From Dehalococcoidia bacterium (GTDB lineage Bacteria; Chloroflexota; Dehalococcoidia; Tepidiformales; Tepidiformaceae), in NCBI GenBank assembly GCA_007118095.1, contig SKSF01000058.1, positions 1 through 49,365 of the forward strand: a stretch of DNA of 49,365 nt, given 5' to 3'. The notes beneath the pieces were generated by a model. The model did not search any database and had not been told where the DNA came from. It saw only the letters and a program-made list of their open reading frames with translations. The translations under genes and the position numbers were made by a program. Shown here in pieces: positions 23,172 to 44,264 of this stretch. The stretch's first letter is position 1, and each line of letters begins with the position of its first letter.

Positions 23172-24392
23172 CTACCAGCCCTTCATCTTCTCCTGCAGCC
23201 GCCGGTCAATCGCCGCGAGGAAGTCCTCCGTCGTCAGGAACTCCTGCTCGCCTGGCACGGACATCGCGAGGTCCTTCGTCATCTCGCCGCCTTCTACGGC
23301 CTCGACGCACACCTCTTCCAGGTACTTCGCGAAGCGCTCCACGTCCGGCGTGCCATCGATCTTGCCGCGGTGCTCCAGCCCCCGTGTCCACGCAAAGATG
23401 GACGCGATCGGGTTCGTCGAGGTCTTCTCGCCGCGCTGGTGCTGCCGGAAGTGCCGCGTCACCGTCCCGTGCGCCGCTTCTGCTTCCACGGTCTTGCCGT
23501 CCGGCGACATCAGCACCGAGGTCATCATCCCGAGCGAACCGAAGCCCTGCGCCACGGTGTCCGACTGCACGTCACCGTCATAGTTCTTGCAGGCCCAGAC
23601 GATGCCGCCTTCCCACTTCAGCACCTGCGCCACCATGTCATCGATAAGCCGGTGCTCGTACGTGATACCCGCCTTCTCGAACTGCTCCTTGAACTCGCTC
23701 TCGTACACCTCCGCGAAGATGTCCCGGAACCGGCCGTCGTAGGCCTTCAGGATGGTGTTCTTCGTCGAGAGGTAGACGGGCCAGCCGCGGTTCAGGCCGT
23801 ACAGCATTGAGGCGCGCGCAAAGTCCCGGATGGACTCGTCGTAGTTGTACATGCCCATCGCAACGCCGCCGTTCGGGAAGTGGGCCACCTCACGGTGGAT
23901 TGGCTCGCCGCCGCCGTCGGGCGTGTACGTGATGGTCACGGTCCCTGGCCCGGGCACCACGAAGTCCTGCGCCTTGTACTGGTCGCCGTGCGCGTGGCGG
24001 CCAATCACGATCGGCTTCTTCCAGCTCGGTACGAGCCGGGGGATGTTCGAACACACGATCGGCTCACGGAAGACCACGCCGCCCAGGATGTTGCGGATCG
24101 TCCCGTTCGGCGAACGCCACATCTGCTTCAGCTTGAACTCTTCCACCCGGTCTTCATCAGGCGTGATGGTCGCGCACTTCACGCCCACTCCGTGCTTGTT
24201 GATCGCGTTCGCCGCATCCACGGTCACCTGGTCGTCCGTCGCGTCCCGGTTCTCAATGCCCAGGTCGTAGTACTCGAGCTCGATGTCCAGGTACGGGAGG
24301 ATCAGCTTCTCCTTGATGAAGTGCCAGATGATCCGCGTCATTTCATCGCCGTCGAGCTCGACGACGGGATTCGCAACCTTGATTTTCTCCAT
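23172..24392 (-). CDS. icd: NADP-dependent isocitrate dehydrogenase (eukaryote-like type)
   Basis: A 406-residue TCA-cycle enzyme giving 2-oxoglutarate, CO2 and NADPH. It starts with [28 protein letters not shown] (about 94-101) is the isocitrate-binding S-x-N-x-x-R segment. [15 protein letters not shown] and the cofactor region [12 protein letters not shown] follow. The sequence belongs to the homodimeric subfamily II shared with eukaryotic cytosolic enzymes, not the E. coli type. It is 118 bp downstream of acnA on the same strand, the next step of the same pathway. Confidence 0.93.
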
Positions 24393-24458
24393 GTGAACGC
24401 TCTGCCTTTCTGCTCAAATCCCTGTAACCGCAGGGGTCTTGCCGGTGATGGTGACCCG

Positions 24459-24490
24459 CCCGCCGCGCACATCCCGGCATGCGCGGCGGG
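24459..24490 (-). terminator. Hairpin between acnA and icd
   Basis: CCCGCCGCGCA (24459-24469) and TGCGCGGCGGG (24480-24490) form a perfect 11-bp stem with a 10-nt loop, 20 bp after the acnA stop. It lacks a U-tract, so it could lower icd readthrough, protect the mRNA end, or terminate. Confidence 0.45.
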
Positions 24491-24510
24491 CCTTCGGTCG
24501 AACTTCCTGG

Positions 24511-27273
24511 CTACTTCGCGCGCGCCAGCAGCTGGCGCAGCACGTACTGCAAAATCCCGCCGTGCTGGTAATAGTCCAGCTCCACCGGCGTATCGATCCG
24601 CGTGACCGCTTCGAACGTCGTCTCTGTCCCGTCGTCGGCGCGGGCCGTCACCGTGAGGCGCTTCCCGGGCTCCAACCCGTTTGCAATCCCGTGGATGCTG
24701 AACGTCTCGCGCCCGGTCAGCCCCAGCGTCTCCCGGTTCTCGCCGGGCAGGAACTGCAGCGGCAGCACGCCCATGCCCACCAGGTTGCTCCGGTGGATGC
24801 GCTCATACGTCTCCGCAATCGCCGCGCGCACGCCCAGCAGTCGCGGCCCCTTCGCGGCCCAGTCGCGCGACGACCCGGAACCGTATTCCTTGCCCGCCAG
24901 CACGATCGTGGGGACACCTTCATCGTGATAGCGCATTGATGCGTCGTAGATGGACATCTCGGTGTCGTCGGGAAGGTGCCGCGTGACGCCGCCTTCCGTC
25001 CCCGGCGCCAGCAGGTTGCGCAGGCGAATGTTCGCAAACGTCCCCCGCATCATCACTTCGTGATTCCCACGCCGCGAGCCGTACGAGTTGAAATCTTCCG
25101 GAGCGACCCCGTGGTCCACCAGGTACTGCGCGGCCGGGCTGTTCCGTGCGATGTTCCCCGCTGGCGAAATGTGGTCGGTCGTGACCGAATCCCCCACCAT
25201 CACCAGCACACGCGCGCCATCGATGTCTCGCAGCGGTTCCGGTTCGTCCGGCAGGCCATCGAAATAGGGAGGGTTCCGCACATACGTCGAATTCGGGTCC
25301 CAATCGAACAGCTCGCCCGTCGGCGTTTCCAGCGATGCCCACGTCTCGTCGCCCTGGAACACCTCGGCATACCGTCGGCGGAACATCTCCGATCGCACAG
25401 ACGACCGGATCGCCTCCTGCACGTCGTTCTGGCTCGGCCAGATGTCCTTCAGGTAGACCGGCTGCCCGTTCTTATCCGTACCGAGTGGTTCGTTGTAGGG
25501 GTCCCAGTCCATGTGTCCGGCCAGCGCATACGCGACCACCAGCGGCGGCGATGCCAGGTAGTTTGCCCGCACGTCCGGGTTGATCCGCCCCTCAAAGTTC
25601 CGGTTTCCGGAGAGCACCGCCCCCGCGACCAGCTCACATTCCTTGATAGCGTTCGCGATCGGCTCATCCACCGGGCCCGAGTTCCCGATACAGGTCGTGC
25701 AGCCGTAACCCACCAGGTTGAAGCCCAGCTCATCCAGGTATGGCGTCAGTCCCGCCTCGTCCAGGTACTCCGTGACCACCTGCGAACCCGGCGCCAGGCT
25801 GCTCTTCACCCAGGGCTTCCGCTCCAGGCCTTTTTCCACCGCGTTTTTCGCCAGGAGACCCGCGCCCAGCATCACCTCCGGGTTCGACGTATTCGTGCAG
25901 CTCGTGATCGCCGCGATGACGACCGAACCATGCCGCAGCTCGACTTCGTTTCCCTGGTACTCGCACGATGCTGTCTGGAAAAGCGAGCCGTACCCAGTCT
26001 CGCCCGGGTCCGGGTTTCCGCCTTCGCTCACCCAGGCCGCAATCTTCTCACGGTCGACGCCGTCGCCCGTAGCCACCATTTCCGTGACGCTCTGCCGCCA
26101 GTTTCGCTTCGAATCCGAAAGCGATATCCGGTCCTGCGGCCGCCGGGGACCCGCGATGGACGGTTCGACTTGCCCGAGGTCCAGTTCCAGCGTGTCGCTG
26201 AAGATGGGGTCCGGCGTATCGTCCGTCCGGAACAGTCCCTGTTCCTTGCAATAGGTGCCGACCAGCTCCACCAGCGACTCGTCCCGGCCCGTGAACCGCA
26301 TGTAGTGCAGCGTCTCTTCGTCGACCGGGAAGAATCCCATCGTCGCCCCGTACTCCGGCGACATATTCGCGATGGTCGCTCGCACCGCCAGCGGCAATGT
26401 GCTCAGGCCCGACCCGTAAAACTCGACAAACTTCCCAACGACGCCCTTCTCCCGGAGCAGCTGCGTCACGCGCAGCACCAGGTCCGTCCCGGTCGCGCCT
26501 TCCGGCAACTGCCCCGTCAGCTTGAAGCCGACCACCTCCGGGATGAGCATCGAAATCGGCTGGCCCAGCATCGCGGCCTCGGCTTCGATACCGCCAACGC
26601 CCCAGCCCAGCACGCCAAGGCCATTGATCATCGTCGTGTGCGAATCGGTCCCCACCAGCGTGTCCGGGTACGTCACAACCGTCCCGTCTTCGTCCTTCTG
26701 GAACACCACCGTCGCTAGGTACTCCAGGTTCACTTGGTGCACGATTCCCGTCCCCGGCGGGACCACGCTGAAGTTGCTGAACGCCCCCTGGCCCCAGCGC
26801 AGGAACGAATACCGCTCCTTGTTCCGCTCGAACTCCTTTTCCACGTTCTGGCGGAAGGCATCGCCCGTCCCGAAGTAGTCCACCTGCACCGAATGGTCGA
26901 TGACCAGGTCCACCGGCTGCAGCGGATTCACAACGCTCGGGTCGCCGCCCTTGGCGCGCACCGCGTCCCGCATCGACGCCAGGTCGACCACCACCGGCAC
27001 ACCCGTGAAGTCCTGCAGCAGCACCCGCGCCGGCGTGAACGCAATCTCGCGGCTCGGCGCCGTTGCCGGTTCCCACGACGCCAGCGCCCGGACATCGTCG
27101 TCCGTCACATTCCGCCCGTCTTCATAGCGCAGCAGGTTTTCAAGGAGAATCTTGAGCGAGAACGGCAGGCGGTCCGGGTGTCCGACACCCTCCGAACGCA
27201 ACCGTTCAAGAGCGTAATACGCGTAGTCCCGGCCACCACTGCTCAGTGTGCTCCGGGTTCCAAAAGTGTCCAT
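24511..27273 (-). CDS. acnA: Aconitate hydratase, AcnA/IRP type
   Basis: A 920-residue [4Fe-4S] enzyme that interconverts citrate and isocitrate. The cluster ligands are in SCTNTSNP (about 454) and [11 protein letters not shown] (about 520). The [17 protein letters not shown] segment, [10 protein letters not shown] and the C-terminal [13 protein letters not shown] with [17 protein letters not shown] are in the usual order and length. GGAAGG lies six bases before the ATG. A leader of roughly 300 nt, if the TATACT at 27578-27583 is used, makes post-transcriptional control possible. Confidence 0.95.
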
Positions 27274-27583
27274 CGCTAACCTTCCCTTACGACCTCAAGG
27301 TCGTGGCTTCCCACAGCTGCTGGAAAGGACAGGGAGTCGACGGACGCAGCCGCGCGGTCGTGTGGCATTGCCTCCCGGGCGGACAGGTCCGGATCTGGTT
27401 GCGTGGAACGTCCGGCCCGGCGCGCCCGTTACCCAGCCCTCCTTCGCAGGCGTGGATGCTTGGGCCCTTGCCCGGGTCGATACCGGGGGGTCACGCCACC
27501 GGCCACCTCCCGCGACTTCCCTCCGTTAGGGACCGTTGGGCCCGGGAGCGGCACTACTCTGGTGCGGACCGCCCCGGAGTATA
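27274..27583 (-). promoter_or_regulatory. Long GC-rich leader of acnA with candidate -10 box
   Basis: No convincing gene lies here. On the minus strand TATACT (27583 to 27578) would start a leader of about 300 nt. The leader contains local stems, for example ACGACC-TCAA-GGTCGT (plus 27290-27305) just before the ribosome-binding site and the near-palindrome CAGGTCCGGATCTG (27384-27397). I could not match it to a known riboswitch by eye. No good -35 box is visible. Confidence 0.3.
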
Positions 27584-27907
27584 GCACTCCCCCCGAGCTT
27601 CCGCTCAGGATCACTCCTGGCCGCATTCGAATTTAGACTCCGCCCGAGTTACCGCTGCCTGCTATCTGTTCCGCTCGGCTAGTGGGCAGGAGGGTTGAGC
27701 GAAGCCCGCAAGGATAGCGCCCGATGGGGCTATAGGTATTCGTCAGCACGAAACGATCCGCGCGGCCGCGCCGTTCCGTGCAACAGCGCCGCTAGCGCAG
27801 GTGTAGGCTGGACTCGCGATAAGTGACCATGTGAGAAGCCCGGGAGTCGTCGAAACGATGGTCGGTTATTGATCCCTGCGCCGGATGTTGCCACGATCTG
27901 TTCCCAG
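27584..27907. other. Noncoding stretch between acnA leader and the FkbM gene
   Basis: About 320 bp of lower-GC sequence with stop codons in all frames. I see no gene, clear promoter or strong hairpin in it. Confidence 0.5.
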
Positions 27908-28687
27908 CTAGCCGACTTCGATCAACTCTAACTTTGGAACGAATTCAGCTTCTCCCACGTGCCGCTTGTGAAGCGCACGCAGCCCGCCATGCGCGCGGCC
28001 CCGGTAGCCGAAAGGACGAAGCAGTTCCCGTATACGTACAAGTGAGTCGGGGCGGACTTCGCACACGATGGCTGGGCGAATCTTATCGATAACACCGAGC
28101 GCGCCTTCAATCACACCAATTTCACCACCTTCAACGTCAACCTTGATGAGCGACGGATATAGGCCAGTAGATTCAGCGTGAGAGTCGATGGTGGTCGTGG
28201 GCACAGTGATCACATGCGCGTCGATGGGCAACTCACCCTCATGGTCGCGCACGAGGTGGTTAACGAGTGAGAAGCCGAAGGTCGCAAATTCCAGCGCGCC
28301 ATCCTCTGAGGTGACTGCCGCCTGTACCAGGTCAACGTTTGTGATGCCGTTCCGTGCAGCGTTTTGTTGCAGGCATTCAGCGTTTGCCGGGTCGGGCTCA
28401 AAGGCTACGACCTGTCGGCAGCGCTGAGCCATCACAAGCGAGAGATAGCCCATGTGGGCACCTGCATCATACGCTACAACACCTGGCTTGAGGTGGCGCC
28501 GTAGCATGTTCACTACGTGGCGTTCGTAGGTGCCAATGGCCAGAGCAGCGCGATCTGGGACAGGTGTGGCTAGCCTCATCCCCCGTAGCGGTCCGAGAAG
28601 CGGCCGCGACTCATAAACGCGACGCCCGTTGATGTAATCCTTGTGCGTCCTCATCCGGGCTATACTTTGGGCTAGGGCGTCAAGCAT
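27908..28687 (-). CDS. FkbM-family methyltransferase
   Basis: A 259-residue SAM-dependent methyltransferase. The Rossmann motif I is VVAYDAGAHMGYLSL, followed by VVAFEPDP, with the typical SLIKVDVEGGE segment in the C-terminal half. FkbM enzymes methylate hydroxyl groups of sugars or secondary metabolites. The open frame extends to a GTG at 28756, so up to 23 more residues are possible; the ATG at 28687 has GGAG directly adjacent, and neither start has an ideal site. Its base composition is less GC-rich than its neighbours. Confidence 0.8.
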   Translation of the reverse strand: MLDALAQSIARMRTHKDYINGRRVYESRPLLGPLRGMRLATPVPDRAALAIGTYERHVVNMLRRHLKPGVVAYDAGAHMGYLSLVMAQRCRQVVAFEPDPANAECLQQNAARNGITNVDLVQAAVTSEDGALEFATFGFSLVNHLVRDHEGELPIDAHVITVPTTTIDSHAESTGLYPSLIKVDVEGGEIGVIEGALGVIDKIRPAIVCEVRPDSLVRIRELLRPFGYRGRAHGGLRALHKRHVGEAEFVPKLELIEVG

Positions 28688-28837
28688 CTCCAACACTAGA
28701 CTCGTTACTGGTGCACACGACGTTGAGGTGCTGTTTGCTAGGTCGCGCGTATGCACTCATTGGCCATCGTCCCGCTCCCGCCGTCGTTTGCCGCATTTTG
28801 AGGTCTGCGACTGTCAGCACTCCCGCCTCCATCGCGT

Positions 28838-30358
28838 TCACACCCGCCGCCCCTTGTTCGGCTTCTGGCGCGCCACCAGCTCTCCCCACCCCGGCTCGTC
28901 CTCCTCCGTCGCTTCCACCCCTTCCGACCCCACCTGCGGCCCGATAACCATCGCAAGCACGAATGCCAGCGTCCCCAGCGCAAGCACCACCAGCCCCGCA
29001 TCACTGAACTCCGTTGGCGTACCCGCAAACAACCCGATCCACGGCTCCGTCGCATCTTCCCGCAGCCGCAAGATCGCCCCCAGCGCCGCCACCGAGATCG
29101 CCCCGCCGATGAAGAACGCGATGTTGAAAGCCCCGACCCCGATGCCCGTCCGCTCCGCCGGCAGCTGGCCCGTGGCCGCATGTAACGCAACAGCGTTGAC
29201 CGACCCGTACCCGGCCCCGACCAGCACGTAGACCACCCCCACGCCCACCGGTGCCCATCCCGCGCCGGCCAGCACAAAGATCACCGCTGCGCTGAACAAC
29301 ACCCAGCTCCCGCCAATCAGCAGTGGCGCGGGTCCGATCCTTGCGGCCAGGGCGCCCGCCGTGATGCCACTCGCCCCCAGCACCGCCGCCCCTGGCAACA
29401 GGTGCAACCCGATTTCGATCATCCCCATCCCGTGGTACCGCTCCAGCAGCAACGGCAGCATCACCACCACCGCGAAGTGCGCTCCCTGGATGCATAGCCC
29501 CACCACGCACATCGCCACGAACCGCAGATTCCGCAAGATCGCCGGGTCCACGAACGGCTCCGGCGCCAGCCGCGTCCGTACCGCGAACAATCCGAGCAGC
29601 GGCACAAACGCCAGCGCACCCGCCAGCCCTGCCGTGTCCGTGACATCGTTCGGCAGCCGGTTGATCGCGATCACCCCACCGGTCACCGCGAGGCTAAGCA
29701 GCCCTGCCCCCACGTAGTCGAACCGCTGTCCCGGCGACCCCGGGACCCCCGGGATCGACACGTACATGAGCGGGAGCAGCAGAATCGTCGCGACCCCCGT
29801 CACCAGGAACGGCCCCTGCCAGCCAATCCACTCCGTCAGCGAACCACCAAGGATCGGCCCGATGCCAAAGCCTATCCCCACCGCGATCACAATCGTCCCG
29901 ATCGCACGCCCCCGCCCCCGGTCATCCGTAGTGTGCACGATCGTCGCCAGAGACAGCGCCGGGATCGCCGTTGCCCCCATCCCCTGCAACACCCTGCCTG
30001 CGACCGCTGCCTCGAACGTCGGCGCCGCCGCGACCAGGAACGACGCGACACAGAACACCGACACCCCGAACAGCAGCAGCCCCCGCGTCCCCTTCATGTC
30101 CGCGAGTCGCCCGTAAATCAGCGTCCCCGTCGCGAACGGGATCAGGAACGCCGCCACAAACCACGACAGCACGTCGTCCGAAACCCCGAACGCCGCCTGC
30201 ACGTCCGGCAGTACAATCGCCGACATCGAAGCGTTCGTCACCGAAATCAGCACACCCGCGAACATCGCCGCGAGCGCGAGCGGCGGCACAGTCCGTGCCG
30301 GGACAGCCGATTCAGCCGGGGCCGTTGTCACTGCACGGATTGTCGGCGGCGCGCACAA
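28838..30358 (-). CDS. MFS drug:H+ antiporter-type exporter (14 TM, DHA2-like)
   Basis: A 506-residue integral membrane protein with about fourteen hydrophobic helices. The loop GRLADMKGTRGLLL (about 83-96) is the MFS motif A, and GRVLQGMGATAIPAL follows. The TM count and these motifs fit DHA2 efflux pumps such as EmrB/QacA. The substrate is unknown. Start is uncertain: a TTG at 30358 and a GTG at 30331 are both possible, with no strong ribosome-binding site. It lies 150 bp downstream of FkbM on the same strand in gene order MFS then FkbM. Confidence 0.85.
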   Translation of the reverse strand: MCAPPTIRAVTTAPAESAVPARTVPPLALAAMFAGVLISVTNASMSAIVLPDVQAAFGVSDDVLSWFVAAFLIPFATGTLIYGRLADMKGTRGLLLFGVSVFCVASFLVAAAPTFEAAVAGRVLQGMGATAIPALSLATIVHTTDDRGRGRAIGTIVIAVGIGFGIGPILGGSLTEWIGWQGPFLVTGVATILLLPLMYVSIPGVPGSPGQRFDYVGAGLLSLAVTGGVIAINRLPNDVTDTAGLAGALAFVPLLGLFAVRTRLAPEPFVDPAILRNLRFVAMCVVGLCIQGAHFAVVVMLPLLLERYHGMGMIEIGLHLLPGAAVLGASGITAGALAARIGPAPLLIGGSWVLFSAAVIFVLAGAGWAPVGVGVVYVLVGAGYGSVNAVALHAATGQLPAERTGIGVGAFNIAFFIGGAISVAALGAILRLREDATEPWIGLFAGTPTEFSDAGLVVLALGTLAFVLAMVIGPQVGSEGVEATEEDEPGWGELVARQKPNKGRRV

Positions 30359-30516
30359 CGATGTCGATCCCGCCGAACCACCCTCGGAAGAACCAATCGA
30401 AGCTCAACACTGTCTCCACGTCTAACCACCATCTGCCCGCCAGTCCGCAGTACGGCGAAAGCGACGCTGAGCCCCGGTTTGGCGCGAAAATCAGCCTGTA
30501 CGGCTGCACCACACGC

Positions 30517-30522
30517 TATACT
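30517..30522 (+). promoter_or_regulatory. Candidate -10 box of the tRNA gene
   Basis: TATACT ends ten bases before the mature 5' end of the tRNA. No matching -35 hexamer stands out. Confidence 0.4.
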
Positions 30523-30531
30523 GTCCCCCAC

Positions 30532-30607
30532 GGGCTCGTAGCTCAGCGGTGAGAGCACCCGGCTCATAACCGGTTGGTCGCAGGTTCAAATCCTGCCGGG
30601 CCCACCA
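30532..30607 (+). tRNA. tRNA with CAT anticodon (Met or Ile2)
   Basis: A 76-nt cloverleaf with encoded CCA. Acceptor GGGCTCG (30532-30538) pairs with CGGGCCC (30597-30603). The D arm has GCTC/GAGC, the anticodon loop CTCATAA puts CAT at 30565-30567, and the T arm is GCAGG-TTCAAAT-CCTGC (30580-30596). The variable region TTGGTCGC resembles tRNA-Ile2, whose CAT is modified by TilS to read AUA, but elongator Met cannot be excluded. Base pair 27-43 of the anticodon stem is a C-T mismatch. The 3' end is the likely attachment site for the adjacent integrase. Confidence 0.92.
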
Positions 30608-30610
30608 ACT

Positions 30611-30660
30611 GTCCCCCTTTACGTCAACTTTGAATTCAGCACACCCGCTGAAAGGGGGAC
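30611..30660 (+). promoter_or_regulatory. Inverted repeat that includes the integrase ribosome-binding site
   Basis: GTCCCCCTTT (30611-30620) and AAAGGGGGAC (30651-30660) form a perfect 10-bp inverted repeat with a 30-bp spacer. The right arm contains the integrase Shine-Dalgarno, four bases before the GTG. In RNA it would hide that site; in DNA it could be an integrase arm site. Confidence 0.6.
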
Positions 30661-30663
30661 TCT

Positions 30664-31617
30664 GTGACGAAACGTAAAGCTGTAGAGCTCTCACGTTTTG
30701 AACTTAGCGATCTGGTGGGAGACTTCCTCTCCGACTACGAATCCGGCCCACCCAAGACCCTGGCCTACTACCGCGACAACGTAGGGCGCGCCCTGTTCAA
30801 CTACCTGTCCGGCCGTGGAATCGACGCCATCGAGGACGTGACCCCGCAAGTGCTGAGGGAATGGCTCATCCACGAGGCCGACCAGTCGTACGACCGCAAG
30901 GGCCACGTCCGCCGCATGTCTCCGCGCACCGTCGTTGGGCGGCACACTGCCGCCCGGCGCTTCTTCTCTTGGTGCGTTGAGCAGGAGATCATCCCCAAGA
31001 GCCCGATGGACATGGTGCGCGCGCCCAAGGCTCCCGAAGACGCCGTTGTCGGCTTTACCGATGAAGAAGTCGAACGACTGATACGGGAAAGCGGTAAGGC
31101 GTGGGGCTGGCTCGCCGCCCGCGACCGCGCAATCGTGACCACCCTTCTCGGCACCGGCGCACGGGCCGACGAACTCCTGCGTATGACCGAAGACAGCATT
31201 GAGTGGGGCCGGCAAGGCAAGGGTGGGCGCATCACCCTGCACGGCAAAGGGGGCAAGATACGGCGTGTCCCCATGGGGCACACCACCGCCAAGGCGATCA
31301 AACGCTACTTGCGCGACCGCCCCGATCCACGGGATGACGCCCTATGGATCACCCTGCGCCGCACGCCTATGAACTACGGCGCGTTGAACATGATGCTGAA
31401 ACACCTTGGCGAATACTCCGGCGTCGAAGGGGTCACTCCGCACCGCTTCCGGCATACCTACGCCTCGCAATGGTGGACCCACCATCGCGACATCCTCGCC
31501 CTCAAGAACCTGCTCGGACACTCCCGGATCGTCACCACCGAACGCTACCTGCGCTCGCTGGGGCACGAGTACGGCACCGACCACACCTACGAAACGCCGG
31601 ACAACTGGTTGGCCTAA
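30664..31617 (+). CDS. Tyrosine recombinase/integrase of an integrative element
   Basis: A 317-residue tyrosine recombinase. The N-terminal SAM-like domain spans about 13-110. The catalytic domain holds R167 (TGARADELL), a beta-hairpin lysine (K195 or K198), H260-x-x-R263 (HRFRH), H286 (LGHSR) and nucleophile Y295 (TTERYL), all in order. It starts at GTG, with AAAGGGGGAC upstream. Reading away from the tRNA 3' end 56 bp upstream, it is placed like an integrase that targets that tRNA. The second attachment site was not found in the window. Confidence 0.92.
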   Translation: MTKRKAVELSRFELSDLVGDFLSDYESGPPKTLAYYRDNVGRALFNYLSGRGIDAIEDVTPQVLREWLIHEADQSYDRKGHVRRMSPRTVVGRHTAARRFFSWCVEQEIIPKSPMDMVRAPKAPEDAVVGFTDEEVERLIRESGKAWGWLAARDRAIVTTLLGTGARADELLRMTEDSIEWGRQGKGGRITLHGKGGKIRRVPMGHTTAKAIKRYLRDRPDPRDDALWITLRRTPMNYGALNMMLKHLGEYSGVEGVTPHRFRHTYASQWWTHHRDILALKNLLGHSRIVTTERYLRSLGHEYGTDHTYETPDNWLA

Positions 31618-31628: not shown

Positions 31629-33040
31629 TTAGCGACGAGCGTGTGGGAGGGGAGCGATGTGAGCATGGAAAAGAGCTATCGGGCGAGTCAATCTGAAGCA
31701 TGGTGAGGAGGCTGTTGCCGAGGTCGGTGGGCCCGTTTCTCTGGTGGTTGATGCCCGAGGAGAGACGTGACCGCTGCCTGGGCAGAGGAAGGCGGTGGCG
31801 TCGTCGAGTTTCAGGACGTTGTGGGCGGTGGAGACGAGGTTCCACTCGCCCTGACGGCCTGCTGGCCACGACGCAGGAACCGGCGGAAGCCACGCGCCCG
31901 TTGGATTTGGCCGAAGACCGGCTCGCCGACCTGTTTGCGTAGGCGATACAGTGCCCTGCCCTCGGCTGTGCACGGCCACGCCCGCATGGCCGTGCGGTAG
32001 GGCCAGTGCCGTGAGCCGCGCAGCGGTCCCGGGTCGGCGTCCGGGGGTTCGTCGTGGTGGTAGCGGCGGAGGCCGACTGCGGCGGTGACGCTGGCATCGG
32101 CGAGGGCAGCACAGTTCGCTTCGGAGGCATAGCCCGCGTCGGCGGTGAACCGGACGGGGAAGCGGCCAGTGTTGGCATGAATGTGTTCGAGCGTGGGCCG
32201 CAGCCGCTGGGCGGTGGGGCGTTGAAGACCTCGCAGGCCGTGATGACCTGGCTGTCGGTTCGACGGCGGCCTGGGCGTTATAGCATTGCTGAAAGCCCTC
32301 TGAGCCCTTCATGATGCAAGACTCCGGGTCGGTGAAATTGGACTGTGCCTTTGGCGGCACCTCGGCCGCTTCCGCGTCCTCCCCCCTGGCTTCCGCCTGC
32401 TCCCGGGCGCGCTCCTCCAGCCTGGCCTTCGCCTCCTGGATACGCTCCAGCCGCTCCTGTTTGCGCCGCATCTCCGGCGGCAAACGCCAGCCGTCGTCAT
32501 CTGGGCCGTACTCCGCGTCTTCCTCGGCGTCTTCGCGTTTGCCCGCTTCCAGCCAGCCATCGACTTCGGCCGCCAGCCGGGCTTCCTTCTCCAGCATGCG
32601 CCGGTAGCTCATCGCCTTGTGCCTGGAGGCGTTCGCCCGCACCTTCGTCCCGTCCAGGCTCACATGTCCCAACCGGACTAGCCCGGCTTCCGCACAGAGG
32701 CCCAGGACCTGGGCGACGAGGCCTTTGAGCTCCCCGGTGAAGCGCTGCCAGAACTCTCCGATGGTGTGGTAGTCGGGCGTAGCCCTGCCCACCAGGTGAA
32801 TGCAGGCCACGTCGCGCTGGCAGAGCTCGGCCAGGTTGCGCGAGGAGGAGGTGCGGCCCATGGAGCCGTAGAGAAACCCACCACGAGCGCCGAGGCGTAG
32901 GGCGGTCGTCGCCGCTCACAGCGGTAGATGGGGGTGGAAGGCTTCGAGGTCGAGTTTCTGGATGGTCTCCTGGAGAAAGAACGCCGGGCGCCCGTCGGGG
33001 ATGAGTCCAGCCAATGAGGGTGGAAGGAGGAAGCCTTGGT
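31629..33040 (-). pseudogene. IS1182-like transposase, frameshifted
   Basis: A near full-length transposase split over several frames. From N to C: LPPSLAGLIPDGRPAFF (about 33,026 down), a TGA after HPHLPL, a shifted segment RRRPPYASALV, then a long open part from about 32,861 starting at GRTSSSRNLAELCQRDV and including HVSLDGTKVRANASRHKAMSYR, then frame loss after CYNAQAAVE. EWNLVSTAHNVLKL is still readable near the end. Related IS1182 proteins have this order: an N-terminal DUF772 region, then a DDE region. No terminal inverted repeats or target duplication could be identified. It directly follows the integrase and is inactive as written. Confidence 0.8.
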
Positions 33041-33104: not shown

Positions 33105-34010
33105 CTAATTCCCGGGCCCACGTCCATGAGTATGGATGCGGATGTTGCCTCCGACGAGCTCGGTCGGTTCCAGTTGATATCGGTCGGCGCCATCCTCGCA
33201 GGCTGTGACGTCAATGCCGAACGCGTCCGCGCCGTCCCTCGAACCGTCCCACGCATTCACCTGGAAGTCACAGACGGTCTCGTCATTCAGCACACCCATG
33301 CCGCGGAACTGCGCGCGAGGCTCGCCGGTCACCACCAGCCATTCCATCTCCGTGCTGACGAAACGGATATCGCCGTCGCGGAACTGGAACTGGAGGTTAC
33401 CCCCGGAATGGTGCGGCCCATACTGTACTGGGACACGAACACGAAGCTTGCCCGGCCGGGCGCTTCAGGGTTTTCCAGGTCGGCCCCGGCTGGCGGGCGA
33501 CGGGACCCAGCCTCCACCCGTCACGAACCCCGCACTCGGGTCGTAGAACACGATCAGGGTCGGCTCCGATTGGCTCGGCTCGTGCGGGCCGTCGCCCGGG
33601 TAGAGGGCCTCGATCTCGTCCACTGTCGGGGATGACGAGGTGAACGGTATCGAGCATGAACGGCTTGTCCCGTCCTGCCCCTCAAGGGTGCACTGCCCGG
33701 CGTCTTCACCGTTACGCTTGAATTGAATGGTGCCGGACGGCGCTGTCTCTCCTTCCGTGGAACCGGCGTCCGATACCGTGGCGGAACAGGTGATGTCCCC
33801 GCCCACCTGCTCCACTTCCGGCGAGCACACGATCGTGGTGTCGGCCGCCCGCACGACCTCGCTGAAGACCGCGAACACCGTCATGTCCTCATCCACCGTC
33901 ACCGTGGTGATGGCACTGTCCGCCTCGGCGACCGGGCCCGTCCAGTGGCTGAACTCCCAGCCTGAGTGGGCGATGGCTACCGTTCGCCCTGGCCGCTCTT
34001 GATGTCATCA
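33105..34010 (-). pseudogene. Fragment of a secreted repeat/adhesin-like protein, frameshifted
   Basis: Three reading frames continue one protein. The first part (about 34,005 to 33,480) reads AHSGWEFSHWTGPVAEADSA, an InlB B-repeat-like unit, then an Ig-like part with TIQFKRNGEDAG, then AGFVTGGGWVPSPA. The frame shifts to GADLENPEAPGRASFVFV and again to GGNLQFQFRDGDIRF, EMEWLVV and the end near 33,105. GFVTGGGW followed by an LQFQF.DGD.RF region is a known secreted C-terminal module. The N-terminus and signal peptide are missing, so this is a truncated relic. Confidence 0.7.
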
Positions 34011-34638: not shown

Positions 34639-37600
34639 TTAGCACTCCAGGCGAACCTGGAGCTGCTCCGCGGCATCGATGAGGGTGTTCGCATCATCCT
34701 CAGACAGTCGCCGTCCAGACTGCGCCTCGACCTGATTGATGAACCCCGTCAGCTGGCCGCAGGCCGCCTGATTGTTGCCGCGTTCAATCGAGGCCTCAAT
34801 CTGCTCCGCCACATTTTGCGTGCTCTGCAGGGCGTCCACGGTTTCCGCCAACTCGGCGAGATCGCCTGCAACATCGTCGAGGGTGACTTCCACAGAACCA
34901 ATATCGCAGGTGCCTTCTGGCGGCTGAGGCCTTGGTACGCCGCGCTGGTCCACCGCGGGGCAAGAGTTGTGGTTGGCCGCGTGGATAGCAGCGCTTCCGA
35001 GCAACGGACGATGAGTCTCGGTTGGACCGCCGTTATCCTGCAGCGGGCCGAGGTGCAGGTCGTCGACCAGTGTGAAGGCGCCCGTCGGGCAACCGCTGCC
35101 GGTGAGGGCGAGGTTATGGGTACCCTCTATGGTACCCGAGCAGGCGAAGACGATGGAGTTCACGGTGGTGACTGTGCCGTCCTCATTCACGAGGCCCCCG
35201 CCTCGCCCGTCCCAGAGTGTGACATGAGTAAGGTCGAGGGTGCCGCCGACTTCGACACGAGCAGTACCACCCTCCGTGTTCTCAGCCGTGTTCCCGCTCA
35301 GCGTGCTGTTAACGAGATCCGCCTGCGCCTCGCTCCCGCTGACAAAGATGGCAGCACCGCGCATCGCGCTGTTGCCGGAAACCTCGGTGCCCGTCACATC
35401 CAGCGTGCCTACGTCGAACTCATCAGCACCAGTTTGGAAAGCCAGGTTTGCGATAGCCCCGCCGGAGGCAGCGCTGTTGTCGGCGAAGACGCTGTCGACG
35501 ACCTCGAGCGTGGCGAGGTTCAGGATGCCGCCGCCCTTACCGCCTGGCTCCCCCTGCCCGCCCAGCGAAGTGCTGTTTCCACGCACTTCGCTTCGAGTCA
35601 GCGTCAGTGAGCCGTCCCCCCAGTTCCCGATGCCGCCTCCGCCTACTCCAAGGGAAGCGGCGGGATGGTCGGTGGCACCGCCGAAGTTCTCGCTAATCGT
35701 GCTGGCGGTAATCGTCATCATGCCCGAGTTGAAGATACCGCCACTACCGTGGTAAGCGTGGTTGCCGGTGACCTCGCTGTCAGCCAGCGTGAATGAGCCA
35801 TCATTGGTGATAGCGCCTGCGCCCAGGCCGGCCCCGTTCTCGGTAAGTTCGCTGGCGGTCACAGTGACCTCACCACCGTTGGCTATGCCGCCGCCGCCGG
35901 CCGCGTTGTTACCGGTCAGGGTACTCCCTTCGACCGATAGTACGCCTTCGAAAGATAGCCCTTGCCACTCGAAAGCCTTGCTTGCAACAGCACCACCCTC
36001 AAAAGCATCGTTCTCGGCGAAGGTGCTTTCGACGACGTCCATCATCCCACCGTTGAACACGCCGCCACCCCTGCCCTCCAGGTTTGCGTGGGTTATGGGT
36101 TCACCCGGAAGCAAGGCATCGTTCCCGCTCACTGTACTGTTGGTGAGTGTCAGGATGCCTCCGAAGTTGTTGATGCCTCCGCCAGTCGGCGCGGAATTCC
36201 CGCTGACCGTGCTATCCGTAAGGCTCAGCTCACCAAGGTTTGTGATGCCGCCGCCGCCGCCAAGGGGATCGCCAATCAACTCCTCGTCGAAGTTGATGCT
36301 GCCGCCAGCGAAATTGTCGCTGACGGTGCTCCCGGTGATCGTCATGGTGGCCCGCACCACCCATTCGCCATCCTCGTGGGCACCGCCGTTGTAGATGCCG
36401 CCAGAGTGGTGATAGGGCGCTTCGTTGCTGCTGACAATACTGTTGCTCAGCGTGAAGGAACCATCGTTGTGAATGCCGGCCCCGACCCGGCCGACCAGGT
36501 TGTCGATGATCTCGCTGTCGGTCACGGTGGCCTCACCGTCCGGGCCGTTCGCTATGGCGCCGCCATAGCCCGAGCTGTTGTCAGACAGGGTGCTCCGTTC
36601 AACTGAAAACGCCCCGTCTTCAACGAAAATCGCGCCGCCTTCCCCGGCAGCAATATTCGCCTCAAAGCTGCTGTCGAGCACCGTGAGCTCGGCGATGCCT
36701 AGCTTGGGGTCGGAGCCACCGTTCGCGATGGCGCCGCCATTGGGTGCCGCATTTTCTTCGAAGATGCTGTCTGAGACCGTCACGTCGCCATCGGCATTCG
36801 AGATGGCACCTCCCCCGCTAGTTACGAAGTAAGGCTCTTCTTGTGAAGGAACGCTGTTCCGGAGGAAAGTACTCTCGCTGACCTGGACCGATCCGTGGTA
36901 GTTCACGATCGCGCCACCTAGGTTTGCAGCGTAGTTATCTTCGAATACACTGTTCGTGATCCTCACTGTGCCCCAAACGTTTTCGATGGCCCCACCGTGA
37001 CCGAAGGGCTCGTTGGCCGCCTCCGTCGCCGTGTTGCCACTAAACGTGGAGTCCACGATCGTCATGGTGCCTGTGTGCTGGCTGATTGCAGCACCCAGGT
37101 TCGCCTCATTGTCCGAGAAGGTACTGTTCCGGACGATCAGGTCTCCTTCTTTCAAAATCGCACCGCCCATACCAGAGCCACCGCCAGGACTCTCGCTGGT
37201 CGCTACGTTTCCGCTGAAAGTGCTGTCTTCAATCGTCACCTTGCCAGCGGACATGATCACAGAGCCACCGCCATCGGCGGAGCCGTTTTGCAGGGTGAGT
37301 CCGTCCAGAGTCAGGTCACCAAATACCCAGAAATGGCGGCTCTCCCCAGCGCCATCGATCGTGATCTCTCCCCCGCCCTGGATCGAGATTACCGAGTCGA
37401 TGGCGATGGTCGGTAGCTGACTCCCATTCAGTGTGATCGTGCCGCTCAGGCCGGGCGCGAAGGTAATCGTGTTTGCGCCATCAGAGCCCGCAGCGCAGCC
37501 CGGGTGGGTGGCCTCGCCATCGATGGCGTTCTCCATCGCTTCCCGCAGGGTACATTTGCCCGCGACACCTACGTCATCATCCAGGCTGTCCACCACGATG

Positions 37601-37785
37601 GTGGTGGTCTGGGCAGTGCCGGGAGACGGCCCCAGCCATGCCACCGCCAGCATGGCCCCAAGGGTGACGGCCAACCCGAACAGTGCGGCGCGGCGCGCAT
37701 GCGCCTTCCGGCGCATCGGTGCCGGCCTCTTTTGGGCGACCGCACCTTGCGGCATCTCAGTGGCCGTGCGGTGCCCATGGTTCAT
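34639..37785 (-). CDS. Secreted right-handed beta-helix protein (CSLREA/Pmp-like)
   Basis: A 1048-residue surface or secreted protein. The hydrophobic export segment lies at about 32-52, and KCTLREAMENA (about 77-87) is a CSLREA-like domain. The body (about 100-930) is a long series of GGAI/GGGI, SxxSxN and TGNxA units typical of polymorphic-outer-membrane-type parallel beta helices. The end of the repeat region has GGPTETHRPLLGSAAI and CDIGSVE, a common closing module. The last 80 residues, with RGNNQAACGQLTGFINQV and a terminal cysteine, are a helical module seen at the C-terminus of similar proteins. ATG 37785 has AAAGGA ten bases upstream. Adhesion is likely but inferred. Confidence 0.85.
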   Translation of the reverse strand: MNHGHRTATEMPQGAVAQKRPAPMRRKAHARRAALFGLAVTLGAMLAVAWLGPSPGTAQTTTIVVDSLDDDVGVAGKCTLREAMENAIDGEATHPGCAAGSDGANTITFAPGLSGTITLNGSQLPTIAIDSVISIQGGGEITIDGAGESRHFWVFGDLTLDGLTLQNGSADGGGSVIMSAGKVTIEDSTFSGNVATSESPGGGSGMGGAILKEGDLIVRNSTFSDNEANLGAAISQHTGTMTIVDSTFSGNTATEAANEPFGHGGAIENVWGTVRITNSVFEDNYAANLGGAIVNYHGSVQVSESTFLRNSVPSQEEPYFVTSGGGAISNADGDVTVSDSIFEENAAPNGGAIANGGSDPKLGIAELTVLDSSFEANIAAGEGGAIFVEDGAFSVERSTLSDNSSGYGGAIANGPDGEATVTDSEIIDNLVGRVGAGIHNDGSFTLSNSIVSSNEAPYHHSGGIYNGGAHEDGEWVVRATMTITGSTVSDNFAGGSINFDEELIGDPLGGGGGITNLGELSLTDSTVSGNSAPTGGGINNFGGILTLTNSTVSGNDALLPGEPITHANLEGRGGGVFNGGMMDVVESTFAENDAFEGGAVASKAFEWQGLSFEGVLSVEGSTLTGNNAAGGGGIANGGEVTVTASELTENGAGLGAGAITNDGSFTLADSEVTGNHAYHGSGGIFNSGMMTITASTISENFGGATDHPAASLGVGGGGIGNWGDGSLTLTRSEVRGNSTSLGGQGEPGGKGGGILNLATLEVVDSVFADNSAASGGAIANLAFQTGADEFDVGTLDVTGTEVSGNSAMRGAAIFVSGSEAQADLVNSTLSGNTAENTEGGTARVEVGGTLDLTHVTLWDGRGGGLVNEDGTVTTVNSIVFACSGTIEGTHNLALTGSGCPTGAFTLVDDLHLGPLQDNGGPTETHRPLLGSAAIHAANHNSCPAVDQRGVPRPQPPEGTCDIGSVEVTLDDVAGDLAELAETVDALQSTQNVAEQIEASIERGNNQAACGQLTGFINQVEAQSGRRLSEDDANTLIDAAEQLQVRLEC

Positions 37786-38215
37786 ATCAGTTCAGTCCTT
37801 TCACGTGCCGTCCGGCGGAAACGTGTAGCGAGAGCCAAGCTTCCTGTTGGTGAGAACCGCTTCCGTTGTCGATCCATCCGTAACTCTTGCTCCCCACGCA
37901 CCAATACGTAACGGTCTTCACGGCCCTGTCCAACACCCCTTCGCCCGTGCGGTCCTCCGTGACCACCTGCCACAGAACTCAGCACGGGCTGCACCGGACG
38001 AGTTCGCAGCACCTTCACACGGCCTGGATAGCATTTCCATGTAAGCCGAAGCGCGACGCATAGCAAAGGAGTAGCGCCGCGGTGGACATTCACCATCGCG
38101 GCAGGTTATGTATTACCGGGCGTGGCATCTCCCGAATTCGGCGGCACGGGCCGGAGGGCGGAAAGGTCGGGCACGACAGTACTGCCTTCGAGGGCCCGCG
38201 GCGACCAGCCCGGGC
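37786..38215. other. Noncoding stretch between the two minus-strand gene groups
   Basis: About 430 bp with only weak open frames and no recognisable product. It presumably holds the beta-helix promoter. A hairpin, GCCGCGGTGG (38076-38085) with CCATCGCGGC (38093-38102), nine pairs plus one G-U, may end the upstream operon. Confidence 0.4.
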
Positions 38216-38557
38216 TCACACACTCAGCCCGAACCTGCCGTGGACGGCCAGGTTGTACAGGACGAGGATCAGCAGCCCCAGGAACCACAGCGGAAGGAAC
38301 AGCAAGAAGGGATAAACGATCAGCGCCCAACCCCACGCCTCGTTGCCCGACTCGCGATCGGCGATGCCGTCGTACACGGCAAGGGCCAGTCCCCCAACAA
38401 CGCCGACCAGCCCCACGTACACGGGGATGAACTGCATCTGGCCCAGGAGGGCAACCATTACGGTGACCAGCGCCACCAGTACCGGGATCGACAACACCAG
38501 AACGATCCGGCCCCGCTCGGAACTGGAGGACCGAGCACCACCGCTGCCGCCGTCCAT
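38216..38557 (-). CDS. Small membrane protein with three hydrophobic segments
   Basis: A 113-residue protein with an N-terminal Ser/Gly-rich stretch, then hydrophobic segments at about 20-40, 44-60 and 78-103. No family is recognised. GAGGAGG lies six bases before ATG 38557, which fixes the start 11 bp after the HEAT gene stop. It is the last gene of the coiled-coil/protease/HEAT cluster. Confidence 0.7.
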   Translation of the reverse strand: MDGGSGGARSSSSERGRIVLVLSIPVLVALVTVMVALLGQMQFIPVYVGLVGVVGGLALAVYDGIADRESGNEAWGWALIVYPFLLFLPLWFLGLLILVLYNLAVHGRFGLSV

Positions 38558-38568
38558 GCACATCCTCC

Positions 38569-40050
38569 TCAGGTCTCGTCCCCTTTGCGCTCGCGCTCTG
38601 CGTTCCACGCTTCAAGACTCGTGCGCTGGGCGGGCGTAAGGGCCTCGTCGTGCAGTTGGGCCACCCTGTGAAGCGCTTCGCCAGTAACACGCCGCTCGTC
38701 TCGGAGTTGGTTTGCGACCTCCATCCTCTCTTTCATCTCGTCGGGATCGTCAAACACCGGTTCGCTGTAGACCTCGAGCCAACGGTCGACGTGGTGCCAG
38801 GCGGCGATGAGGGGTTCGACGGACGGAGCTCCAAGCGAGCTTGCCTTCTCGTAGTCGCCCCTGGCCACCCAGTACCACGCGCCGGCCTCGCCGCGGTCGG
38901 GCTCCCAGCCGAGCTTGGTCAGCGCCTCTGCCGCCGCAGCCGTCCCGTAGGCCTGGCCGGCGGGGAAATTCGGCAAAGTATAAGCGACGGGCGTCTGCCG
39001 CTTGAGCGCGGCGATGAGCGGTTCGACGGCGGGGGAGCCGATCCTGGCTAAAGCAGTCACGGCTGCTTCGGGTTCCGGCCCCCATAGCTCGGCGATCAGT
39101 GGTTCCACATCACCGAGTTTGCCCAGAGCTTCAGCCGCCAGCACCGACGCGTTCCCATCCCCCAGCGAAGCCCTGAGCGGTTGGATGGCCGGCTCGCCGA
39201 TCTTGACCAGCGCCGCGAGGGCGCGCCGCGGCTGGTCGTGGTGCCCCAGGCGGGCGATGAGTGGCTCGACAGCCGGGGCCCCGAGTGAGATGGCCTTCCC
39301 GTACTCACCCGTGCCGACCAAGTACCAGGCGTTATCATCCTCCGGCTCCCACCCGAGCCTTTTGAGCGCCTCTGCCGCCCCGCAAAAACGGTCGGGGTGG
39401 CGAACAGCAGCGATGAGTGGTTCGATGGCCGGTTCGCCGATCTCGACCAACGCCTTCACGAACGGCTCACGGAACTTGGCCGTGTACTCAAGACGCTCGA
39501 TGAGCGCCGCGGTGGCCTTACGGGTGGCCCCCGGGCGATCTCGCGCAGCGCCGATCCTTCCCAGTGCCGCGATGATGGCCTCCTTGGCCTCTTTCTTCTC
39601 GTATCCATACGCCTCGATCAGCGGAACAACGGCCGGAGCACCGATTTTGACAAGCGCAGCCAGGGCGTTGTTGCGCACCTCCGGCGAGTACCCGAGAGCC
39701 CTGATGAGCGGTTCTATGGCCTGCGCATCAGCACGAGCGCCGAGTGCTTCGGCGGCACACGCCGCCACCCGCGAATCGTCGTCGTCCAGCGCATAGATGA
39801 GCGGTTCGACGACACGCCTATTCTTCATCTTACCCAGGGCCCGGGCCGCAGCCTCGCGCACCCCCTTCTCTTCGTCCCCGAGGGCCTCGACCAGCGGCTC
39901 GATGGCGTGCCCGTCAGCGAGGACACCGAGGGCCTCGGCCGCAGCCGTGCGGACCCCTGCATCCTTCTTGTAGGTCAGGGCCTTGGTAAGCCCCCGGACA
40001 TCGTGCTTCTCGGACATTTTGCTGACATTTGGCGGTCCAAAGATGCCCAT
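38569..40050 (-). CDS. HEAT-repeat (PBS-lyase type) protein
   Basis: A 493-residue soluble protein made of about ten helical HEAT repeats of the form AIEPLVEAL..VR.AAA.ALG. Two LGW-x-P...AWYWVA.G-x-Y-x-K...SLGAP units (about 222 and 385) are specialised repeats seen in related proteins. The C-terminal 90 residues are charged helix. HEAT repeats bind proteins; no catalytic part is seen. GGAGGG lies five bases before ATG 40050, and the longer frame to 40101 has no such site. It lies 63 bp after the protease gene. Confidence 0.87.
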   Translation of the reverse strand: MGIFGPPNVSKMSEKHDVRGLTKALTYKKDAGVRTAAAEALGVLADGHAIEPLVEALGDEEKGVREAAARALGKMKNRRVVEPLIYALDDDDSRVAACAAEALGARADAQAIEPLIRALGYSPEVRNNALAALVKIGAPAVVPLIEAYGYEKKEAKEAIIAALGRIGAARDRPGATRKATAALIERLEYTAKFREPFVKALVEIGEPAIEPLIAAVRHPDRFCGAAEALKRLGWEPEDDNAWYLVGTGEYGKAISLGAPAVEPLIARLGHHDQPRRALAALVKIGEPAIQPLRASLGDGNASVLAAEALGKLGDVEPLIAELWGPEPEAAVTALARIGSPAVEPLIAALKRQTPVAYTLPNFPAGQAYGTAAAAEALTKLGWEPDRGEAGAWYWVARGDYEKASSLGAPSVEPLIAAWHHVDRWLEVYSEPVFDDPDEMKERMEVANQLRDERRVTGEALHRVAQLHDEALTPAQRTSLEAWNAERERKGDET

Positions 40051-40113
40051 GGCATCCCTCCTGTAAGCGGGTCTGTGGCTGGTCAGACACCTCGGGCGCA
40101 TGGCCCAATGCGA

Positions 40114-40965
40114 CTAGCATATGTCGAGCTCCGAGCACACGCGGTCAATCGGGATCGCGAAACCGAGGCCTTCGTAGGCGATGAGGCCAACCTTCCAGGT
40201 GGCGACGCCGATAACCTGGCCCTGCGTGTTCAGGATGGGGCCTCCGCTATTACCTGGACTGATCTGGGCGCTGATCTGTAGCCACGTCTCGGCATCGACC
40301 CGCCGCTCGACCGCGGACACGATGCCCGCGGTCACCGTCCCCTCCAGCCCTCCGCCCGCGCCGACTGCCATGACAGGGTCTCCGACGCGCGGTGGTGTGT
40401 CGGCCGGCTCCAATGCGGGCAGGTCGGCGGATACCGTGATGAGGGCGAGATCGTGGGCGGGCCTGACCTTCACAACCTCCCCCGCGTATTCGCGCCGTCC
40501 CCGTGCGAGGAACACCTCGCTCGCGCCCTCGACGACGTGGTAGTTCGTCACCACCAACGATCGACGGCCGTCCTTCGCCAACACGAACCCGGTTCCAACC
40601 GACGTCCAATCGTCGTCGGCGTGAGCGACGACCATGAAAATGGACGGCGTGGTCGTTTCGGCCAGTGCGACGGGGTCGAACTCGGCAACTACGTCCCCTT
40701 CGAGCAGGCTCATTCGTTCGCCCAGGGCGTCGAGTTCCGCGCCGAACGCGTCGAACCTTTCGCCCGGCTCCGTGTCTGCCCGGTCGTCGGCTGCAATGTC
40801 GCCTCGTAGCGAGGCAACGTCGCTCTCGACCTGGTCGATAGAGCGCCATAAGGCGACATTGGTGATGAGGAGTGCCGCGATCAGGAGCGCGGCAACTGCG
40901 ATGACCACAGTTGCCGCGCTTCTGGACCGGAGGGGTCCGCGCGCAGCATTAGCGCTGCGCGTCAT
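40114..40965 (-). CDS. Membrane-anchored trypsin-like serine protease (S1C/DegP-like)
   Basis: A 283-residue protein. One N-terminal membrane helix (about 18-38) is followed by a short coiled coil (about 41-95), then a chymotrypsin-fold domain (about 97-283) with H143 (TNYHVVEG), D172 (AHDLALI) and S240 (SPGNSGGP). The catalytic triad is complete. There is no PDZ domain, unlike DegP. The active domain is probably outside the membrane. ATG 40965 follows GGAGGG and overlaps the upstream gene by 17 bp. Confidence 0.9.
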   Translation of the reverse strand: MTRSANAARGPLRSRSAATVVIAVAALLIAALLITNVALWRSIDQVESDVASLRGDIAADDRADTEPGERFDAFGAELDALGERMSLLEGDVVAEFDPVALAETTTPSIFMVVAHADDDWTSVGTGFVLAKDGRRSLVVTNYHVVEGASEVFLARGRREYAGEVVKVRPAHDLALITVSADLPALEPADTPPRVGDPVMAVGAGGGLEGTVTAGIVSAVERRVDAETWLQISAQISPGNSGGPILNTQGQVIGVATWKVGLIAYEGLGFAIPIDRVCSELDIC

Positions 40966-41590
40966 CGCCACCCTCCGGCAGCGGCGCACGATCAACCATC
41001 AGGCGGCGAATCTCGTCCAGGTAATCCAGTGAACGTACTATTTCCGGGTTCACCTGGTGCTCCAGGATGCCGTCGACTGCGTTCGCGTTCGCATCGGTCG
41101 GGTTGGCGAAGAAGCGGTCCAGGGCCGCCATTGCCTCGTCCTCCGCGTCGAACAGTGCCACGCTGCACCCGCACGCGGAGTCAGCGACGGACATGATTTC
41201 TTCCGCATCTGCTGCGAAGAGCCCGGCCTGTTCCGCCATCTCGTCCGCGGCCGCTTGGGCCTCCTCCTGGGCAGATGCAAGGTCTGCCCGGGACGCAGCC
41301 AGTTCGTCCTCGTTCGTTGCCAGCTCACCCTGCGCGCGTGCCAGGTCGCCTCGCAGTTCTGCTTGAGCGCCCTCGTCTACGCCGCCGCCAATAGCGCCGA
41401 ACAATCCAAGGGCTGCTCCTGCGACGAGTATGCCCACAGAGGCGATCATGGCTATGCCCGTGTAGGGTCGCCCGCTCTGCTCGGACGAAGGAGGCGGTGC
41501 GGGGGCCGCCTCCGGCGAGTACCATTTGCCATCGCTTGCCTGCCACCATCCCGGTTCCGGGGGTGCGTCGAGTCCCTGGTACTGTGTCAT
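40949..41590 (-). CDS. Membrane protein with WWQASDGKWY motif and coiled coil
   Basis: A 213-residue protein. The N-terminus has PGWWQASDGKWYSPE (about 13-27), a short DUF2510/GYF-like motif known from actinobacterial membrane proteins, then Pro/Ser-rich linker, one membrane helix (about 44-70) and a Glu/Ala-rich coiled coil (about 76-122). A possible metal- or disulfide-forming CGC occurs near 139-141. It overlaps both neighbours (4 bp and 17 bp), so it is in one transcript with the protease. Function unknown. Confidence 0.78.
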   Translation of the reverse strand: MTQYQGLDAPPEPGWWQASDGKWYSPEAAPAPPPSSEQSGRPYTGIAMIASVGILVAGAALGLFGAIGGGVDEGAQAELRGDLARAQGELATNEDELAASRADLASAQEEAQAAADEMAEQAGLFAADAEEIMSVADSACGCSVALFDAEDEAMAALDRFFANPTDANANAVDGILEHQVNPEIVRSLDYLDEIRRLMVDRAPLPEGGDDAQR

Positions 41591-42096
41591 CGGTCTCCCC
41601 CACTGTTTGCGAGCGTCTGCTCCAGCTCGGCCAGCGCTGCTTCCGCCTCTTCGAAGGCTTCCAGAAGCGCGTCACGGGCGCCCCGGACCGCCTCGAGAGC
41701 CGGCTTCACCTCCGCGTCGACGTCCGCAGCCAACTGTTCAATCGAGGTGTCCCGGGCAAGCGCCGCGTTCCACGCGGCAACTTTGTCCTGTGACGCCTCG
41801 ACGAAGTCCTCGAAGTGCTCAACCCAGTCGACCAGTGCCTGGTCCAGGTTTCCCGCTGCGGTAACCATCGCCTCCTGGCCTTCCTGGTCCGAGACCACAG
41901 CGAGCAGTTGAGCATCGACCTCGGCCTTCTCCGCGGCCACGACCGTCGCGTCATCATCCACTGCAGCTATCTCGTCGTTGAGACGGTCGATCTCCGGGTC
42001 GTCTGCGGTCAGTCGCACGACGCCGACTATCCCGAGACCTACCCCGACCACGACAAATGCTGCTCCGAGGAGCAGCATTGTCCGGGTGCGTTCCAC
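41587..42096 (-). CDS. Membrane-anchored coiled-coil protein
   Basis: A 169-residue protein with one N-terminal membrane helix (about 7-28) and a long acidic coiled coil (about 34-165), a layout shared with the next gene. The open frame continues without a stop into an IS256-like transposase remnant up to 42609. GTG 42096, with GGGGA seven bases upstream, gives a normal short membrane protein and is preferred. The 4-bp overlap with the WWQASDGKWY gene makes coupling likely. Confidence 0.7.
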   Translation of the reverse strand: MERTRTMLLLGAAFVVVGVGLGIVGVVRLTADDPEIDRLNDEIAAVDDDATVVAAEKAEVDAQLLAVVSDQEGQEAMVTAAGNLDQALVDWVEHFEDFVEASQDKVAAWNAALARDTSIEQLAADVDAEVKPALEAVRGARDALLEAFEEAEAALAELEQTLANSGGDR

Positions 42097-42191
42097 TTGT
42101 GTATCCCCGCTAACATTCGGGTGAATTTCGGCAGCCTTCGTGTATTGTCCTCTGCCGTTGTCATAATCGTAGAACACGGGGTCACGCGAAT

Positions 42192-42213: not shown

Positions 42214-42289
42214 TCTGAGTCCGAATGCGCATAATAGCTTGCAGTAATCCCCGATACGGCAGGACGCCGCCCGCCCCACCCCGCCATGC

Positions 42290-44218: not shown

Positions 44219-44264
44219 GATCCTGTCCCACGCCGACCTGCCCTGAGCAGGAATCCCGTGTCTT

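Follow-up and report, generated by a model that had tools for sequence, protein, structure and literature searches.

A tyrosine recombinase gene behind a native-looking CAT tRNA gene as the probable end of a tRNA-targeted integrative element in a Dehalococcoidia bacterium

The tRNA-integrase junction and its left flank

The window analyzed here, i.e., the whole stretch of 49,365 bases under study, is the complete contig C169 of a draft genome of 3.23 Mb (227 contigs, estimated completeness 98%). A single tRNA gene was detected in the window by ARAGORN; it has the anticodon CAT, ends in an encoded CCA and may be of either the elongator Met or the Ile2 type. After a gap of 56 bp it is followed by the open reading frame of a tyrosine recombinase, which reads away from it (Table 1). 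The same arrangement had been noticed in an earlier sequence-only reading, and the tRNA prediction, the reading frame and the Pfam assignment agree on it. A consensus scan of positions 30350-30800 revealed no promoter and no terminator. In order and orientation the pair corresponds to the STI class (tRNA before integrase, both in the same orientation), which, with 736 of 1273 tRNA-integrase pairs, was the most frequent class in one survey (PMC2951348). A tyrosine integrase gene adjoining its tRNA target is likewise characteristic of tDNA-integrated genomic islands, as defined for Islander (PMC4383910).

Table 1. Positions of the features in the window and of tRNA-derived repeats beside related integrases
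Feature	Position	Strand	Basis or remark
Isocitrate dehydrogenase, aconitase, FkbM methyltransferase, MFS transporter (left flank)	23172-30358	-	Order partly kept in relatives
tRNA gene, CAT anticodon	30532-30607	+	ARAGORN; gene includes CCA; taken to be the native target
Putative attL core, anticodon stem/loop to CCA	30561-30607	+	Analogy with repeats in relatives
Leader dyad, 10-bp arms 30611-30620 and 30651-30660	30611-30660	+	3' arm holds the SD-like AAGGGGG of the integrase
Tyrosine recombinase (integrase), 317 aa, GTG start	30664-31617	+	Pfam PF00589, PHROG integrase, NCBIfam
ORF with partial IS1182-family transposase match, remnant	31629-32861	-	Match at residues 5-202 (about 32256-32849)
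Large ORF, choice-of-anchor Q and CSLREA domains	34639-37785	-	NCBIfam
HEAT/trypsin block, common to G001 elsewhere	38201-42181	-	81% DNA identity to G001:C386
HEAT-repeat protein	38569-40101	-	Within block 38201-42181
Trypsin-like protease	40114-40995	-	Within block 38201-42181
Apparently chimeric ORF	41587-42609	-	IS256 part and shared-block part
TIR and RDD domain protein	42971-44362	-	Pfam
TrkA-N and RyR domain protein	45859-47673	-	Domain search
Repeat in G021	40.8 kb downstream		40 bp
Repeat in G049	16.2 kb downstream		58 bp
Repeat in G333	11.6 kb downstream		44 bp
Repeat in G170	16.4 kb downstream		82 bp; whole tRNA
Repeat in G086	18.5 kb downstream		45 bp
Repeat in G272	4.7 kb downstream		48 bp

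The left side of the window holds the genes of EF-G, a helicase, isocitrate dehydrogenase and aconitase, and then those of an FkbM methyltransferase and an MFS transporter, so that the earlier description of this side as core-like proved roughly right. A match to the DNA of the window tRNA was found in 58 of the 61 genomes searched, the matching gene not always being the orthologue. In ten of 18 best-match neighbourhoods (L057, L061, L064, L067-L073) aconitase lies upstream of the tRNA orthologue, and in six of these ten isocitrate dehydrogenase stands beside it within the stretch fetched; no aconitase was found in the remaining eight, two of which hold less than 1 kb upstream. None of the gene families common to at least three tRNA neighbourhoods has a member downstream of the window tRNA as well.

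The most direct comparison was provided by a genome of the same genus (G001), in which aconitase, MFS transporter and tRNA follow each other in the window order. The two tRNA genes differ at four positions, all in the 5' part, and the last 47 nt are identical, so the 3' half shows no sign of foreign origin. The G001 contig ends 153 bp past the tRNA, with no integrase in this stretch, although one starting farther on is possible. These 153 bp gave only chance-level matches to the genome under study (best E 0.83), and, in the absence of a significant match for the G001 right flank, no empty site could be demonstrated. The intergenic DNA between the MFS gene and the tRNA does not match between G001 and the window either, which makes the dissimilarity after the CCA weak evidence when taken alone. 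The window tRNA thus looks native.

Integrase lineage and tRNA-derived repeats in its relatives

The integrase frame gave a hit to Phage_integrase (PF00589) at 1.5e-28. Residues R167, K195, H260, R263, H286 and Y295, which we take to be the catalytic set, are all present, and each is conserved in 40-45 of the 45 sequences aligned, the window protein included. Judged from its sequence, the frame of 317 aa is intact, being open and carrying the expected residues. The nearest homologues are 41% (G019) and 38% (G021) identical. Ten distinct sequences of solved structures were matched; most are Xer recombinases or integrases, and the first-ranked one is a chain in entry 9i5v labelled as a ribosome factor. 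Matches in phage and plasmid records were all below 60% identity (about 24-31% in the 40 listed), and an integrase scan of viral contigs confirmed nothing.

With XerC, XerD and XerA the window protein shares sequence similarity and the expected catalytic residues. The best NCBIfam models were XerC, XerA and an XerD-type subfamily, which would suit a resident Xer-like housekeeping enzyme, or an unrelated one, standing behind the tRNA by chance. The scores, however, are far below the curated cut-offs (148, 123 and 136 bits versus 335, 330 and 220, respectively), and the genome holds two other recombinase homologues. In its position behind a tRNA, too, the window integrase differs from XerC, XerD and XerA. 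Moreover, in 48 of 105 loci of integrase homologues, the window included, a tRNA of the same strand lies at most about 320 nt upstream, and these tRNAs are of several kinds, whereas only a divergent tRNA was present in nine loci. The 105 loci are a subset of the listed matches, made up of 45 protein-search loci including the window and 60 fetched by place, with close pairs (e.g., L084/L095 and L078/L088) counted separately. Considering these data, we regard a chance neighbourhood of a resident enzyme as very improbable. On a 4.4-kb contig (L075, G019:C19) the closest homologue stands behind a tRNA-like 3' fragment devoid of the 5' half, and no tRNA was called before the integrase of this genome by ARAGORN.

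Thirteen relatives were followed downstream of the integrase, and in six of them an exact copy of 40-82 bp of the tRNA sequence was found on the same strand 4.7-41 kb away (Table 1), while the longest match on the opposite strand, used as control, was 15 bp in any of 14 sets. No such repeat occurs in the other seven within the 3.5-37.6 kb examined downstream. In five of the six (G021, G049, G333, G086 and G272) the repeat starts 39-46 nt before the tRNA end, and these starts, for the most part close to the anticodon, match the anticodon-centred class of Islander (PMC4383910). The G170 copy is a complete second tRNA and therefore perhaps reflects gene duplication.

The orthologue of the window tRNA itself appears to have served as such a site in other genomes. 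It is repeated over 50 bp at 8.19 kb downstream in G007 (L068) and over 49 bp at 7.11 kb downstream in G027 (L155), and in both cases a different integrase lies beside the far copy and points back to the tRNA, across stretches of 7-8 kb. The contig of G030 ends in the 3' part of the tRNA, with the next bases resembling by eye those after the far copy in G007. Weaker repeats of 22 and 20 bp were seen in G035 and G002, respectively. In 15 of 19 orthologous-tRNA neighbourhoods no repeat longer than 12 bp was present in the 138 to 19,539 bases available.

Taken together, the kept left neighbours, the homologues behind tRNA genes and the repeats of the relatives make it very probable that the junction is the end of a tRNA-targeted insertion. 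The earlier claim of an element end at this tRNA thus holds, on the grounds of the conserved aconitase neighbour, the placement of the related integrases and the tRNA-derived direct repeats.

The leader of the integrase gene

The 56-bp gap contains a dyad whose stem includes the ribosome-binding site of the integrase. The fold of the leader is unusually stable (z -4.22; none of 200 shuffles as stable), and the pairing of the SD region reaches p of about 0.05 against shuffles. A stable hairpin over the ribosome-binding site distinguishes the window from STI pairs as presented in the survey cited above, which also reports for KplE1 an integrase promoter overlapping attL, with autoregulation (PMC2951348). 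A literature search by title found nothing on hairpins or read-through at tRNA-linked integrases, which is no proof of absence. The dyad might act as a lock, in which transcripts reading through from the tRNA would hide the ribosome-binding site of the integrase and keep the element quiet while integrated, but we hold this to be unlikely.

An SD-hiding hairpin as a trait of the family was considered and rejected. A first look at 20 leaders had seemed more favourable, with several low z-scores; in the 32 tandem leaders tested the mean SD pairing was 0.651, compared with 0.703 in shuffles. Only three of the 32 had p below 0.1, the window with 0.05 among them, and the Fisher chi-square was 60.4 on 64 degrees of freedom. 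These 32 were drawn from the 48 tandem leaders after dropping two in which no start was found and 14 with an SD score below 4; each leader was limited to 160 nt, a simple score decided on the start codon, and near-identical sequences were counted separately. For comparison, 48 homologues with neither a tandem nor a divergent tRNA were taken, 33 of which passed the filters; two of the 33 were below 0.1 (chi-square 59.1 on 66). The leaders of L083, L164 and L090, in which C tracts accompany a G-rich SD, gave p = 0.24, 0.90 and 0.05, respectively. Since the tandem leaders show no excess of SD pairing, the window hairpin is to be seen as an oddity of a single locus.

The right side of the window and the far end of the element

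By analogy with the relatives, the segment from the anticodon stem/loop to the CCA is a putative attL core, of which no second copy was found in the draft. The sequence-only reading had reported none in the window by eye and had proposed a search of the assembly. This search was carried out, and its outcome bears out the statement and extends it to the 3.2-Mb draft: with up to three mismatches allowed, the window and the genome each contain the final 25 nt of the tRNA a single time, a 20-nt pattern that extends 4 nt beyond the tRNA also has one occurrence at this tolerance, and BLAST of 30500-30664 against the draft gave four other matches, all of them other tRNA genes. Within the 17.7 kb downstream of the tRNA the longest match to its 3' end was 13 bp, a length reached in 9 of 200 shuffles. 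A 13-bp repeat (30634-30646 and 33285-33297), considered as an att core not derived from the tRNA, was dropped, as first-order Markov shuffles give at least 13 bp in 9 of 200 cases and its flanks do not match. The locus therefore departs from tDNA-integrated islands, as Islander presents them (PMC4383910), in that a displaced tRNA fragment forming the far-end direct repeat was not found in this assembly. With the draft in 227 contigs, its absence from the chromosome is not proven; the far end has presumably been lost, has diverged or was left unassembled.

The genes to the right of the integrase are of varied appearance. The IS1182 match (NF033551) reaches 129 bits against a cut-off of 270 and covers positions 71-276 of the 488 in the profile. 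In the chimeric ORF, residues 2-89 (about 42343-42606) match an IS256-family transposase and residues 172-339 match the shared block, so this ORF is possibly a rearrangement joint. A WD40 gene is present as well, and several long ORFs are open. The right-side proteins scanned, which took in part of the small ORFs, included none recognizable as a phage structural or transfer protein; in a defence library, models of HEAT, protease and TIR type were matched in part. Among the 61 genomes searched at E up to 1e-20, the HEAT protein was confined to its own genome and G001, and the TIR-RDD protein to its own genome. The TIR-RDD and TrkA-RyR proteins are encoded near each other (42971-47673), and the TIR part partially matches defence-type TIR models. 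The GC skew is less pronounced to the right of the junction than to its left, which is consistent with a different history of this DNA, without being proof of it.

The HEAT/trypsin block has different surroundings in the window and in G001, which indicates its movement within the genus. The flanks of the G001 copy (C386, L136) match contig C210 (L143) of the genome under study at 14943-15465 and 11017-11238, the two matches being in opposite relative orientation. An IS256 fragment lies about 160 bp past the right edge of the block in the window. Bases 1-121 of the window are identical to the last 121 bases of reverse-complemented C210, and this overlap makes C210 a possible left neighbour. The view of the right side as IS remnants, decayed genes and accessory clusters was thus borne out for the partial IS1182 and IS256 sequences and the uncommon genes, but not for the long open ORFs and the block shared with G001. 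Likewise, of the proposal that all DNA right of the tRNA belongs to the element, the tRNA-proximal end stands, whereas no other end was found and block 38201-42181 also occurs in G001. The lack of a second copy and the shared block mean that the right side is not one clean element; it is a mosaic.

We are fairly confident that the junction represents the integrase-proximal, attL-like end of a tRNA-targeted integrative element. On this view the tyrosine recombinase would have inserted the element within the 3' part of the native CAT tRNA gene, most likely by recombination in the region bounded by the anticodon loop and the CCA end; since the element would bring its own copy of this 3' part, the tRNA would have stayed complete. 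Later IS-linked rearrangement would probably have removed or scrambled the displaced copy at the right end, unless that copy lies in an assembly gap. The tRNA, the open integrase frame, the retained left neighbours and the tRNA-derived repeats beside related integrases are observed, whereas integration of the window copy in the manner of its relatives and the fate of its right end are proposed.

As to what the right-hand DNA now is, the tRNA and the integrase may be all that remains after deletion of the rest, this DNA then being of the host or of other mobile origin and brought there by IS-linked rearrangement. The partial IS1182 match some 640 bp past the integrase, the block common to the genus and the failure to find a right att point to such a scar, while the open integrase frame with its expected residues and the TIR-RDD gene, confined to its own genome as cargo might be, speak against it; we consider it a serious possibility, somewhat short of probable. 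Alternatively, the element may run beyond the contig, with the right att in an unassembled gap. That the window is an entire contig of a fragmented draft and that repeat-bounded stretches reach 41 kb in relatives would fit this, but the high estimated completeness, the lack of another 25-nt copy even with mismatches and the G001-shared block within the supposed element do not, and we treat it as possible, if rather doubtful. Under the preferred reading of the junction as an attL-like element end, the locus is ordinary in kind, a marker of an inserted element at a tRNA, the usual docking point of mobile DNA. The genus-shared block inside the supposed element serves as a warning that DNA to the right of a tRNA is not automatically an island. 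The tRNA-derived repeats in six relatives and the two more at the orthologue of the window tRNA provide the lineage context, and the data suggest a divergent lineage of integrases with a recurrent place behind tRNA genes.
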